A stretch of 64,000 bases of DNA, taken from assembly GCF_002903165.1 (NCBI RefSeq), contig NZ_PPSK01000012.1:1-64000 (forward strand), read 5' to 3'. Below the pieces are notes generated by a model. That model had not been told where the DNA came from. It ran no database searches and saw only the letters and a program-made list of their open reading frames with translations. The stretch comes from Halopseudomonas oceani (GTDB lineage Bacteria > Pseudomonadota > Gammaproteobacteria > Pseudomonadales > Pseudomonadaceae). A program made the position numbers and the translations under genes. Below are positions 37,662 to 42,157 of the stretch, piece after piece. Every line of letters starts with the position of its first letter. Position 1 is the stretch's first letter.

Positions 37662-38819
37662 TTAACCTGCGTTGTGCCGCGTTGATACTGGAGCGGCTTC
37701 CGTTGCGTCAGCGGCGAGCTGGCGTACGGCGATATAGCGTTCACTGCGGCGGGTGCGATCCATCACCTGCCCGACCAGTTGCCCGCAGGCGGCGTCAATA
37801 TCTTCACCGCGTGTCGTTCGCACCGTGACGTTATAGCCTGCCTGATGCAACATGTCCTGAAAACGACGAATCGCGTTATTGCTTGGCCGCTCGTAACCGG
37901 AGTGCGGGAACGGGTTGAACGGAATCAGGTTGATTTTGCACGGGATATCGCGCAGCAGCTCAATCATCTCGGCAGCATGCTCGGGCTGGTCGTTCACGCC
38001 CTTGAGCAAGGTGTACTCGACCGTCAGCGAGCGTTTCTCGCCGAGGCCGGCGATGTAGTTCTTGCAGGCCGGCAACAGCACCTCCAGCGGGTACTTCTTA
38101 TTCAGCGGTACCAACTGATTGCGCAGCGCGTTGTTCGGCGCGTGCAGCGATAGTGCCAGTGCAACATCCATCTGCTCGGCCAGCTTGTTGATCATCGGCA
38201 CGACGCCAGAGGTGGACAGGGTCACCTTGCGTTTGGAAATGCCGTAGCCCAGATCGTCCATCATCAACGTCATGGCATCCACAACGTTGTCGTAATTAAG
38301 CAGCGGCTCACCCATGCCCATCATCACCACGTTGGTGACGGCACGATCGGCGGTCGCAGGAACAGAACCAAAGGACTTGCTGGCGATCCACACCTGGCCA
38401 ATGATTTCGGCCACGGTCAGGTCGCTGTTGAAGCCCTGCTTGCCGGTCGAACAGAAGCTGCAGTCCAGCGCACAACCCGCCTGAGAGGAGACACACAGGG
38501 TGCCGCGCCCGTTCTGCGGAATGTACACTGTCTCAACGCAACTGCCCGAGGCAACCCGGACGACCCACTTGCGTGTGCCGTCACGGGAAATATCCTCGCT
38601 GACTACTTCGGGACCACGAATCTCGGCGGTGGCCTTGAGCTTCTCGCGCAGGGCCTTGCCGATATTGGTCATGTCATCGAAGTTGTCCACGCCATAGTGA
38701 TGCATCCATTTCATGACCTGGCCGGCACGAAAACGCTTCTCTCCCAATCCTTCGAAGAAAGCTTCCAGTTTCTGCTGTGTCAGACCCAGCAGATTGGTCT
38801 TGCTGGTGGTATCGGTCAT
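37662..38819 (-). CDS. rlmN: Dual-specificity RNA methyltransferase RlmN
   Basis: A 385-residue radical-SAM enzyme that methylates A2503 of 23S rRNA and A37 of certain tRNAs. The radical-SAM cluster cysteines are Cys116, Cys120 and Cys123 (CALDCSFC). The C-terminal ACGQL carries the methyl-transfer cysteine. [14 protein letters not shown] and [13 protein letters not shown] are conserved. The ATG at 38819 is chosen over a GTG at 38828. Fe-S dependent. It lies between ndk and pilF as in Pseudomonas. Confidence 0.96.
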
Positions 38820-38858
38820 GGCGATCACATCACTAGGTTGAGCAAACCCGACCCGGCC

Positions 38859-39284
38859 TTAGCGCGGGCAGAGTTCGGTTTCGGCGAAGAAGTAAGCCAC
38901 TTCGCGTGCAGCGGAAGTGGTGGAGTCGGAGCCGTGAACAGCGTTGGCATCGATGGACTCGGCGAAGTCTGCGCGGATAGTACCGGCATCGGCTTCTTTC
39001 GGGTTGGTAGCGCCCATCAGCTCACGGTTTTTCAGAACCGCACCTTCACCTTCCAGAACCTGAACAACAACCGGGCCGGAGGTCATGAAGCCAACCAGAT
39101 CCTTGAAGAAAGGACGCTCTTTGTGCTCGGCGTAGAAACCTTCGGCATCGGCCTGGGACAGCTGAACCATCTTGGCTGCAACAACGCGCAGACCAGCCTG
39201 CTCGAAGCGGGTCAGGATCTGACCAATGACATTTTTGGCAACGGCATCGGGCTTGATGATGGACAGGGTACGTTCAACGGCCAT
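38859..39284 (-). CDS. ndk: Nucleoside diphosphate kinase
   Basis: A 141-residue enzyme that transfers the gamma-phosphate from NTPs to NDPs. The catalytic His117 lies in NAVHGSDS. The N-terminus [15 protein letters not shown] is typical and the length is normal. An unusual palindrome enclosing a TATAAT lies 47-73 bp upstream. In other Pseudomonas the gene upstream would be iscX at the end of the isc operon; here it is iscS. Confidence 0.98.
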
Positions 39285-39330
39285 AAAACTCTCCAGAGAG
39301 GTAGTTACAGAATAAAATTACAAAAGATGG

Positions 39331-39357
39331 TTAACCTGCGGATTATACGCAGGTTAA
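39331..39357 (-). promoter_or_regulatory. Palindrome enclosing the putative ndk -10 box
   Basis: Perfect 10-bp arms TTAACCTGCG (39331-39340 on +) and CGCAGGTTAA (39348-39357) surround a 7-nt core. On the minus strand the core reads TATAATC, so a perfect -10 hexamer (39347-39342) lies inside the dyad. No good -35 is evident. It could be an operator, an iscS 3' hairpin, or both. Confidence 0.55.
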
Positions 39358-39396
39358 AGACAAATAGATAACAGCAGCGTAGCTGACGGTATACCG

Positions 39397-40548
39397 TCAG
39401 CTAGCACGCAGGCGGGTTACCACCTGACAGATGATCTCAGCCGCCCGCTGGACATCCTGTTCAGAGGTAAAACGGCCAAGCGACAGACGGATGGAGCTGT
39501 GTGCCAGTTCGTCGCTCAAGCCAATCCCGCGCAGCACATAAGAGGGCTCGACCGCGGCAGAGGTACAGGCGGAGCCCGTCGACAACGCCAGATCCTTGAG
39601 CGCGAGCAACAGCAGCTCGCCGTCAACACCGGCGAACGCCAGATTGAGGTTGTGCGGTACCCGCTGATCGGCACTGCCATTGAGACTGACGCCGTCCAGA
39701 CCGGCCAGGCCGTTGAGTAGCGCGTCACGCAACGCGGAAACCCGCGCATTCTCACCTTTCATCAGCTTGCCAGCCAACTCAAAGGCTTCACCCATACCAA
39801 CGATCTGGTGAGTCGCCAGGGTGCCGGAACGCAGGCCGCGCTCGTGCCCACCACCATGCATCTGCGCCTGCGGCTTCGGCATCAGGGTACGTCGCACAAA
39901 CAGTGCACCAACACCCTTGGGGCCGTAGGTCTTGTGTGCGCTGAATGACATCAGATCGACCGGCAATACCCTCAGGTCAATTGCCAGCTTGCCTGTCGAC
40001 TGCGCCGCGTCAACGTGGAATACCGCCCCGCCCGCGTGGGCAATCTCACCCAGGGCCTGAATATCATTGACCGTGCCAATTTCGTTATTGACGTGCATCA
40101 GCGACACCAGCACGGTGTCTTCACGCAAAGCCGCCTGCAACTGCTCGGGCGCGATGAATCCGCCCGGACCTGGCTCCAGCCAGGTCACCTCGAACCCTTC
40201 TTGCTCGAGCTGCTTGAAGCAGTCAATAACCGCCTTGTGCTCGATCTTGCAGGTGACCAGATGCCGCCCCTTATCTTGCAGGGCGTGCGCCATTCCCTTG
40301 ATCGCTAGGTTGTTCGATTCTGTGGCGCCGGAAGTCCAGACAATCTCACGCGGGTCGGCACCGACTAGGTCCGCCACCTGACGCCGGCCATGCTCAACCG
40401 CCTCCTCCGCCTTCCAGCCGTAAACATGAGAGCGCGAAGCAGGGTTGGCGAAGTTGCCGTCCATGGTCAAACAGGCAACCATCTTTTCGGCGACCTGCGG
40501 ATCAACCGGCGTGGTAGCGGCGTAATCCAGGTAAATCGGCTGATTCAT
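39397..40548 (-). CDS. iscS: Cysteine desulfurase, IscS type, without its usual operon
   Basis: A 383-residue PLP enzyme that releases sulfur from cysteine. It has His104, Asp180, the PLP lysine Lys206 ([12 protein letters not shown]) and the active-site Cys328 in STGSACTSA. The protein ends at RLRAS, about 20 residues short of E. coli IscS, lacking the C-terminal tail that contacts IscU. The ATG at 40548 has GGAG upstream. It starts 11 bp after cysE and is followed by ndk; iscR, iscU, iscA, hscB, hscA, fdx and iscX, expected here in Pseudomonas, are absent. It may serve tRNA thiolation or a scaffold encoded elsewhere. Confidence 0.92.
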
Positions 40549-40559
40549 CAACAACTCCA

Positions 40560-41375
40560 TCAAGGCTTTTCAGCTGCAGCATCAGTAGCCACCGCGTCAG
40601 TTTCATCATCCTTGAGCAATTCAAAATCCTCACCACCGAGCGCGGGCAGCTCTTTGGCGCAATAGTCACTACCCAACTCGCTCAACGCCTTGCACATACC
40701 CTCAAGACGACTATCCACGGCGTGCATGTGGTCCAGCATCTGCCCAATCGCACGCGCCACCGGGTCCGGCATATCGCGGCTGACACCATAGGCATCAAAG
40801 CCGAGTTTTTCCGCCATGGCCTGACGGTTAGCCTGCTGCTCGCTTTCAGCCGACGGCTCCGGATCCTTCGGAATGATTCGCCCCGGAATACCGACCGCAG
40901 TGGCGCCGGCAGGCACTGCCTTGGTCACCACAGCATTGGAGCCGATTTTTGCTCCGGCGCCCACAGTAAACGGCCCCAGCACCTTGGCGCCGGCACCGAC
41001 CACAACGCCGTCTTCCAGCGTCGGATGGCGCTTACCCTGATCCCAACTGGTACCACCCAGCGTCACGCCCTGATACAGCGTCACGTCGTTGCCAATCTCG
41101 GTGGTTTCACCAATCACCACACCGAAACCGTGATCAATAAAGAACCGACGCCCAATCTTCGCACCTGGGTGAATCTCGATCCCCGTCAGCCAGCGCGCAA
41201 AATGCGACAACATACGGGCCAGCAGAAAAGCCCGCCGAACCCACAACGCATGCGAAGCGCGATGCAACCAGACCGCATGCAAGCCGGGATAACAGGTCAG
41301 CACTTCCAGCGTGTTGCGCGCGGCAGGATCACGGTGGAATACACTGGCGATATCTTCTTTCATGCGATCAAACAT
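40560..41375 (-). CDS. cysE: Serine O-acetyltransferase
   Basis: A 271-residue enzyme making O-acetylserine for cysteine synthesis. The N-terminal helical domain ([32 protein letters not shown]) is followed by a left-handed beta-helix with hexapeptides ([42 protein letters not shown]). The acidic C-terminal extension ([16 protein letters not shown]) is longer than in enteric CysE. It is coupled to trmJ (2-bp gap) and iscS (11-bp gap), placing cysteine synthesis and use together. Confidence 0.95.
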
Positions 41376-41377
41376 GG

Positions 41378-42157
41378 TTAGGTTCTCCGCTCGCCGGCTG
41401 CTTTGACGCCGACGGCCTTCTGGGTTTCGGTCAGGATCCCGCGCAGGATGTTCATTTCCATCCGGTTGAGGTGCACCCGCCCGTAAAGGCGACGCAAACG
41501 CGGCATCAACTGCCGTGGTTTCTGAGGGTCATGGAAGCCAATTTCAACCAGCACCTGCTCCAGATGCTGATAAAACTGCTCCAGCTCCCCCGCCGTCGCC
41601 GGAATCTCGTTAAACACTGCCGTGGTTTCGACCTTGTGCATTTTGGTCGGCGCACCTTCGCGCTGCAGACTCTGCATACGCAGCTCATAGGCCAGCACCT
41701 GCACCGCAGCAGCCAGGTTCAGCGAGCTGAAGTCCGGCATAGAAGGGATGTGTACGTGATACTGGCAGCGCTGCAGCTCGTCGGTGGTCAGACCCGAGTC
41801 CTCGCGCCCGAACACCAGCGCGACCTGCGCGTCCGGCAGCTGTGCCAGTTGATCCAGCACCTTGTCAGCGGACTCGCGCGGATCCAGCACCGGCCAGGGA
41901 ATACGGCGATCCCGGGCGCTGGTGCCGAGCACCAGCGAGCAGTCAGCGATAGCCTCTTCCAGGGTCGCGACAATTCGAGCGCCGGTCAGCACATCATCAG
42001 CACCGGATGCGCGCGAGACGGCATCCGGGTCGGGGAAGCGCTCGGGGTCGACCAACACTAACTGGGTCAGCCCCATGTTTTTCATGGCCCGCGCCGCGCC
42101 GCCGATGTTGCCAGGATGACTGGTGTTGACCAACACCACACGCACGTTCTTCAACAC
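41378..42157 (-). CDS. trmJ: tRNA (cytidine/uridine-2'-O)-methyltransferase TrmJ
   Basis: A 259-residue SPOUT-class methyltransferase modifying position 32 of tRNAs. The start [26 protein letters not shown], the [12 protein letters not shown] motif and [23 protein letters not shown] define the family. It is first gene of trmJ-cysE-iscS and divergent from suhB. Confidence 0.95.

Follow-up and report, generated by a model that had tools for sequence, protein, structure and literature searches.

A tail-less IscS at the trmJ-ndk locus of Halopseudomonas, a genus carrying SUF in place of ISC, is a candidate sulfur donor for tRNA thiolation

The iscS locus

The window, a stretch of 64,000 nucleotides analysed as a whole, is contig C12 of the 4,155,021-base genome of Halopseudomonas oceani, labelled 100% complete. 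Open reading frames, named by NCBIfam models, follow each other on the minus strand in the order trmJ-cysE-iscS-ndk-rlmN. The features of the region are as follows.

41378-42157, minus strand: trmJ, conserved flanking gene upstream of the isc locus (NCBIfam NF011694, 287.5 bits, cut-off 280)
40560-41375, minus strand: cysE, serine O-acetyltransferase, adjoining iscS upstream (TIGR01172, 250.1 bits, cut-off 210.65)
39397-40563, minus strand: iscS, encoding a cysteine desulfurase that lacks the C-terminal tail for IscU docking (NCBIfam, alignment to E. coli IscS)
39565-39567, minus strand: codon TGT of the iscS active-site Cys, E. coli IscS Cys328 (alignment to E. coli IscS, codon checked)
39397-39408, minus strand: 3' end of iscS, Arg-Ala-Ser-stop; in IscS of ISC loci the same Arg is followed by 23 residues including SPLW
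39285-39396, minus strand: iscS-ndk intergenic stretch of 112 bases, site of iscU-iscA-hscB-hscA-fdx-iscX in the ISC Pseudomonas locus L042
39333-39355, minus strand: AACCTGCGTATAATCCGCAGGTT, promoter-like inverted repeat around TATAAT upstream of ndk, putative function
38859-39284, minus strand: ndk, nucleoside-diphosphate kinase, downstream flank (NF001908, 219.7 bits, cut-off 155)
37662-38828, minus strand: rlmN, downstream flank (TIGR00048, 473.6 bits, cut-off 290)

In the window iscR is missing between cysE and iscS, and the 112 bases separating iscS from ndk host no isc gene. At the same place the Pseudomonas relative carries the whole set iscR-iscS-iscU-iscA-hscB-hscA-fdx-iscX-ndk. The cysE stop codon TGA occupies 40562-40560, and the listed TTG start of iscS at 40563 overlaps cysE by 4 bases. 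Further ATG codons are found at 40560 and 40548. The latter coincides in the alignment with the start of E. coli IscS, and is the probable true start (the former being the alternative); depending on the codon chosen, iscS begins inside cysE or 11 bases past its end. RlmN is a radical-SAM Fe-S enzyme, and the cell therefore still requires Fe-S clusters.

The inverted repeat at 39333-39355 may represent the ndk promoter plus an operator. It is visible in 8 of 10 printed Halopseudomonas stretches, being hidden in the other two by an ndk frame called overlong. Repeats judged similar by eye precede ndk in several of the 13 ISC Pseudomonadaceae loci compared, none of which matches the exact pattern. 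A plasmid search carried out with the locus returned one partial match, to an Aeromonas record.

Absence of the ISC system in the genus

The trmJ-cysE-iscS order was found in all the 30 Halopseudomonas loci first read (L122-L151). In 29 of them ndk comes next, while L149 stops short of ndk, and loci from two additional genomes (L158, L160) show the same junction. Orthologues of IscS occur in 36 of 37 Halopseudomonas genomes, the G193 copy being divided over two contig ends; the sole genome devoid of an orthologue, G196, is 83% complete. A profile search (PF01592) found no IscU in the whole window genome. The family sample comprises 198 genomes, 33 from Halopseudomonas and 165 from other genera. 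IscU is present in 164 of the latter and in none of the former; the exception, G104, belongs to another genus and is 83% complete.

A composite query, joining seven proteins of a single Pseudomonas operon (IscU, IscA, HscB, Fdx, IscX, HscA and IscR), was run against 15 Halopseudomonas genomes and the ISC control G008. In the control every one of the seven parts was strongly matched, Fdx and IscX within a single joined stretch. None of the 15 genomes matched IscU or IscX, and the HscB part was hit only by the overhang of A-type matches. Weak Fdx matches (E 3e-8 or worse) were seen in five genomes, and chaperones at 40-42% identity to HscA in all 15. The IscA part retrieved the suf-linked A-type gene and one further A-type gene, and strong IscR matches lay solely beside suf. 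The IscU scaffold accompanied by HscB, HscA and IscX, which defines membership of the ISC system, is thus not found in Halopseudomonas. The sequence-only reading had described cysE, iscS and ndk as adjacent, with the other isc genes gone and the flanks conserved. The open reading frames, the 30 genus loci and the missing IscU agree with it on each point, as does the comparison of the junction in related species that it had advised.

Two trivial explanations were considered. An assembly error is ruled out by a cysE-iscS junction shared by 30 of 30 loci, several from single-contig genomes. Similarly, the view that iscS is a paralogue accompanying a complete isc operon located elsewhere is ruled out by the absence of IscU from the own genome and from all 33 Halopseudomonas members of the family sample. 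The probability left to either is practically nil.

SUF as the replacement

SufB/D proteins (PF01458) were identified in all the 33 Halopseudomonas genomes and in none of the 165 others, a restriction to one genus that holds for the 198-genome family sample. The genome-wide search for isc and suf genes, suggested along with the idea that a Suf system had replaced Isc, located on contig C9 (L121) of the own genome the array iscR-sufB-sufC-sufD-sufS-sufA-sufT-sufE. The same order was read in 14 further Halopseudomonas genomes (15 of 15 loci), and the replacement is thereby supported. Curated models are passed in the own genome by SufB, SufD and SufS (TIGR01980, TIGR01981, TIGR01979), SufT (TIGR03406) and IscR (TIGR02010). 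SufA passes TIGR00049 only, SufA and SufE fall below equivalog cut-offs, and SufC was named from its sequence, without a model scan. The genes make up a SUF system of the SufABCDSET type in a single locus. The top model for SufS (L121:11599-12846) is the family 2A encapsulin cargo cysteine desulfurase, at 643.9 bits of the 800-bit cut-off. The match spans only positions 221-622 of the profile, hence the likeness is to a cargo desulfurase minus its N-terminal part.

In a quick tree Halopseudomonas SUF proteins group with genomes of the families f136, f145 and f162, and Halopseudomonas IscR groups with one f136 IscR (support 90/67). The suf genes and iscR were probably gained from a relative akin to these families. 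That Halopseudomonas relies on SUF only has already been published, and the presence/absence pattern is not new. According to passages of a survey (PMC11559095), early-branching Pseudomonadaceae (P. phragmitis and Halopseudomonas) carry SufABCDSET instead of ISC, as found here, and P. cavernae and P. frederiksbergensis a different, added SUF. The mutual exclusion of ISC and SUF in Gammaproteobacteria is noted in a passage of PMC10631705. The retained iscS, its missing tail and its locus go unmentioned in those passages of the survey.

IscS lacks the IscU-docking tail

The window IscS aligns to residues 1-381 of the 404 of E. coli IscS, and then ends. It terminates 20-22 residues early, and is devoid of most of the C-terminal helix on which IscU docks. 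It reaches the IscS model NF010611 (591.1 bits, cut-off 548) and misses TIGR02006 (576.2 bits, cut-off 643.2). Residues past column 381 number 1-3 in 31 of 31 Halopseudomonas sequences (one of them, L041, probably duplicates the organism of L143), and 23, SPLW among them, in 116 of 116 IscS from ISC loci, a set that may contain duplicate species. The tail is present as well in all the 79 ISC loci returned by the relatives search.

Passages of Shi et al. 2010 (PMC2854127) place the contact of IscU with the C-terminal helix of E. coli IscS at Arg379-Lys391. IscS deprived of residues 376-404 is described in the text as not binding IscU, and Table 3 gives the deletion as 374-404 and the binding as 'Low'; in the single tail mutants L386R and M389R binding persists. 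The laboratory-made deletion and Halopseudomonas IscS share the loss of the docking segment. Unlike the former, the latter is natural, ends at about residue 383 and carries more surface changes.

Surface changes were evaluated in the 31 genus sequences at 209 columns conserved at 95% or more across the 116 ISC IscS. Regions were picked from residues listed in PMC2854127, plus an approximate 365-381 range for the end of the helix preceding the tail. The genus retains the ISC residue in 87% of all cells; in region tests which are not blind, as the genus sequences were seen before regions were chosen, the figure is 57% in the IscU region (12 columns; 3 of 208 rotations as low), 62% in a 216-230 patch including CyaY/IscX residues (9 columns; 9 of 208 rotations as low) and 98.6% in the TusA region (9 columns). 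In 78 other tail-less IscS, retention is 61% in the IscU region, 58% in the patch and 94% in the TusA region, versus 80% overall.

The residues H104, D180, Q183, K206 and C328 are kept in 31 of 31 Halopseudomonas IscS, K206 being the PLP lysine and C328 the active-site Cys. Equally invariant are Arg220 and the TusA-contact residues Trp45, Glu49, Glu52, Arg55, Asp65 and Arg237. Certain changes are just as uniform, being found in 31 of 31 sequences: Glu309, Ser312 and Met315, on an IscU-facing helix, are altered, Leu333 is replaced by Val, Phe89, of minor importance to ThiI in E. coli, by Ala, and Arg223 (CyaY/IscX, weakly ThiI) is lost. Ser326 is kept in all. In E. coli, according to the parts of PMC2854127 concerned, L333A lowers IscU-dependent s2C to 20% and spares TusA and ThiI products (Table 3), and the change of Ser326 to Ala affects mainly the IscU product. 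Halopseudomonas IscS thus shares catalytic and TusA-region residues with the E. coli sulfur hub, which additionally serves IscU, CyaY and IscX (passages of PMC2854127 and PMC11302665).

Sulfur-transfer partners

TusA matches occur in all 37 Halopseudomonas genomes, 35 of which host two copies. In the own genome one copy passes the TusA model (113.7 bits, cut-off 78) and the other does not (56.8 bits), and MnmA scores 490.1 bits (cut-off 284). TusA, MnmA and the TusA-contact residues expected of a donor for tRNA thiolation are all present. ThiI is encoded in the own genome, and has a strong match in 31 of the 37. The six genomes in which such a match is missing include G046, G058 and G165, all 99-100% complete, which may have lost 4-thiouridine synthesis.

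CyaY was found, with weak matches (E 8e-18 to 4e-14), in 26 of 32 Halopseudomonas genomes. It was not found in G066, G125, G139, G153, G187 and G190, four of which are 99-100% complete. In the same sample 161 of 164 genomes of other genera have CyaY at E 3e-22 or better. Halopseudomonas frataxin therefore looks diverged, and partly lost. In E. coli CyaY binds SufS too (PMC11446229).

The IscS tail and IscU across the order

An order-wide sample of 145 genomes, each at least 95% complete, was analysed; all have an IscS match. Canonical IscU was defined here as a match of at least 95 bits in a frame of at most 200 residues. Sixty-four genomes have it, and in 64 of 64 the IscS tail is present (ends were read from open reading frames in 17 and from the match range in the other 47). 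The remaining 81 lack canonical IscU, and 79 of them lack the tail, one has a decayed tail (G450) and one is unreadable (G434). BLAST ranges had hinted at a tail in three of the 81, but in G382 and G453 the apparent tail came from reading through a stop codon; the remaining genome is G450. Tail-less IscS of the order extend 1-13 residues past position 381. Another PF01592 match occurs in 11 of the 81, four being long and NifU-like and seven weak and SufU-like, according to labels given in this analysis. G434, in which the iscS frame is broken, was left out of trees and residue counts, and G450 of residue counts.

G450 has no IscU match, and its IscS, with a decayed tail (SPQWKQYQ..., L312), falls in the tailed clade next to that of G405 (100/99), a genome of the same genus in which iscR-iscS-iscU-iscA-hscB persists. 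In G378 (L220), counted as tail-less and likewise devoid of an IscU match, a short remnant, SPQWKRAQKSL, is left. Read from their sequences, the two tails are possible intermediates of tail loss.

Both tail states occur within eight families of the order. A sample of 140 genomes of the class agrees by eye, as about 60 genomes in which IscS is at least 60% identical and reaches the tail all have strong PF01592. There is one contrary row, G280 (53% identity), in which the tail is reached and PF01592 is not matched. On the TrmJ tree the tail state changes 12 times. Well-supported independent pairs, all agreeing with IscU, number five on the TrmJ tree (p 0.0625) and three on the RlmN tree (p 0.25), too few for significance in both cases. 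Titles and abstract openings among the literature matches listed, at most 20 per search and largely without subscription papers, hold no account of a missing IscS tail or of an order-wide tie to IscU.

Phylogeny of IscS and gene order at tail-less loci

Quick trees place Halopseudomonas with the other Pseudomonadaceae on TrmJ (SH-aLRT 92) and on RlmN (SH-aLRT 98; other parts of the RlmN tree drew long-branch warnings). On IscS trees, Halopseudomonas does not sit beside Pseudomonas, and the tail state needs only 2 or 3 changes; in the second of these trees long or distant rows (L233-L238, L257, L275, L314) were omitted. Unlike IscS, IscR requires 15 changes to account for the tail labels, a figure near that of TrmJ. 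Forcing Halopseudomonas with Pseudomonas on IscS lowers the log-likelihood by 71 units (AU p 0.049; 0.081 in another AU test). Under the simpler LG+F+G4 model the cost is 92 log units (AU p 0.028).

What follows iscS was catalogued in 77 tail-less loci of other genera. Eight families include genomes with iscR ahead of iscS and sufB after it. In genomes of ten families iscR is likewise ahead of iscS and ndk comes after, and in three families ndk follows with no iscR recognised. Arrangements seen in single families are sufE-iscS-ndk, iscS-iscR-suf, and iscS followed by an A-type gene. Loci in which suf lies directly behind iscR-iscS, at the place of iscU, are L221-L228, L233, L239-L241, L248, L269, L270, L272 and L292-L295.

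Discussion

Gene content, locus order, the missing tail and the retained residues, all read directly from the genomes, make it likely that Halopseudomonas exchanged its Fe-S cluster factory from ISC to SUF, and kept iscS at the old isc locus as a sulfur donor oriented towards tRNA, having lost the parts on which IscU docks. The window IscS is best read as an enzyme reduced to this function. According to this view, and to the known SUF pathway applied to the gene content, SufS-SufE would supply SufBCD, alongside SufA and SufT. The one strong match to IscR sits next to suf. iscS would have been retained because cysteine sulfur is still required for other ends. IscS would form a persulfide on the conserved Cys, and pass sulfur to TusA, from which it would reach MnmA and 2-thiouridine at position 34 of tRNA; in most species sulfur would be delivered to ThiI as well, for 4-thiouridine at position 8 and for thiamine. 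In the absence of an IscU partner, the enzyme would have shed most of the docking helix together with portions of its IscU and CyaY/IscX surfaces, but kept the surface for TusA and its catalytic core. Enzymatic activity, the flow of sulfur, the loss of the tail after that of IscU, and a native origin of iscS are what we infer.

Not all data go in the same direction. Residues related to IscU did not all change one way, as Ser326 is kept throughout, and E. coli L386R and M389R still bind IscU in the passages quoted above. The changes at Phe89 and Arg223, the lack of a strong ThiI match in three essentially complete genomes, and the survival of CyaY, which binds also SufS in E. coli, all weigh against a simple donor. 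The sequence-only reading had Fe-S assembly moved or replaced, "leaving" iscS for tRNA thiolation or as a sulfur donor. The thiolation part of this claim fits the kept catalytic and TusA-contact residues, the missing docking helix and the TusA, MnmA and ThiI genes. Less secure is the word leaving, since IscS trees part the genus from Pseudomonas though TrmJ and RlmN join them, and iscS is perhaps not native.

The pattern of the IscS trees can be read either as convergence under a shared loss or as an exchange of iscS between SUF-type lineages. According to the latter view, iscS is no relic, and a tail-less iscS of SUF type recombined into the trmJ-ndk locus, with or before suf, replacing the whole isc operon, suf and iscR being placed elsewhere. 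The layout iscR-iscS-sufB, known from at least one tail-less genome in each of eight families, and that of f154, in which suf lies directly upstream of iscS, speak for this view. So do the f136, f145 and f162 genomes grouping with Halopseudomonas SUF, which have this layout, and the f136 IscR that groups with that of the genus. The low number of tail changes on IscS trees compared to the TrmJ tree points in the same direction. Yet, the genomes grouping with Halopseudomonas on SUF are not its neighbours on IscS, even if a constraint that unites them there is not rejected (AU p 0.060). In addition, masking 94 partner-contact columns reduces the likelihood gap to Pseudomonas from 71 to 10 log units (AU p 0.37), as functional convergence predicts; against expectation, however, the masked columns carry no significant excess of per-site likelihood (64 of 377 shifts are as high). 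An incoming iscS is on balance a possible but doubtful origin.

The other alternative, which we regard as unlikely, concerns function, and holds that the solitary IscS remains involved in Fe-S metabolism, handing sulfur straight to apoproteins or to SUF, by analogy with what has been proposed for the IscS of Mycobacterium tuberculosis. The window IscS is closer to E. coli IscS (526 bits) than to PDB 4isy (251 bits), which we take to be the M. tuberculosis enzyme; an earlier crystal-structure paper on the latter (2014) reportedly describes adaptation to the absence of IscU. In passages of PMC10848736 M. tuberculosis, like Halopseudomonas, has a complete SUF and an isc operon cut to iscS (Rv3025c), but there iscS shares an operon with trmU, unlike Halopseudomonas iscS. 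According to the same passages, an iscS mutant suffers from defects in bioenergetics and under oxidative stress, and both IscS and Suf add to the activities of Fe-S enzymes. The CyaY genes retained in 26 of 32 Halopseudomonas genomes would suit such a role. Against it, Halopseudomonas has SufS and a SufE-like gene, and its IscS has lost the helix on which IscU docks.

The order-wide data allow a broader proposal, to which we give slightly better than an even chance. In many separate lineages of the order the exchange of ISC for SUF would make IscS shed the IscU-docking helix and the matching surface, and turn into a dedicated donor for tRNA thiolation. The IscS C-terminus alone would then predict which Fe-S machine a genome uses, and G450 and G378 would show the process under way.

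The loss of tail and surface in a retained IscS, and the order-wide tie of this loss to IscU, go beyond the known substitution of ISC by SUF, though a specialist would expect such changes. They provide a mark of the substitution at the sequence level, inside the sulfur hub itself, and help to tell which IscS surfaces serve IscU and which are needed for tRNA. Tail-less proteins are natural candidates for separation-of-function variants of IscS, and the tail is a genome marker for loss of an Fe-S system. As a close relative of Pseudomonas, Halopseudomonas lends itself to testing why the swap occurred and what it costs.
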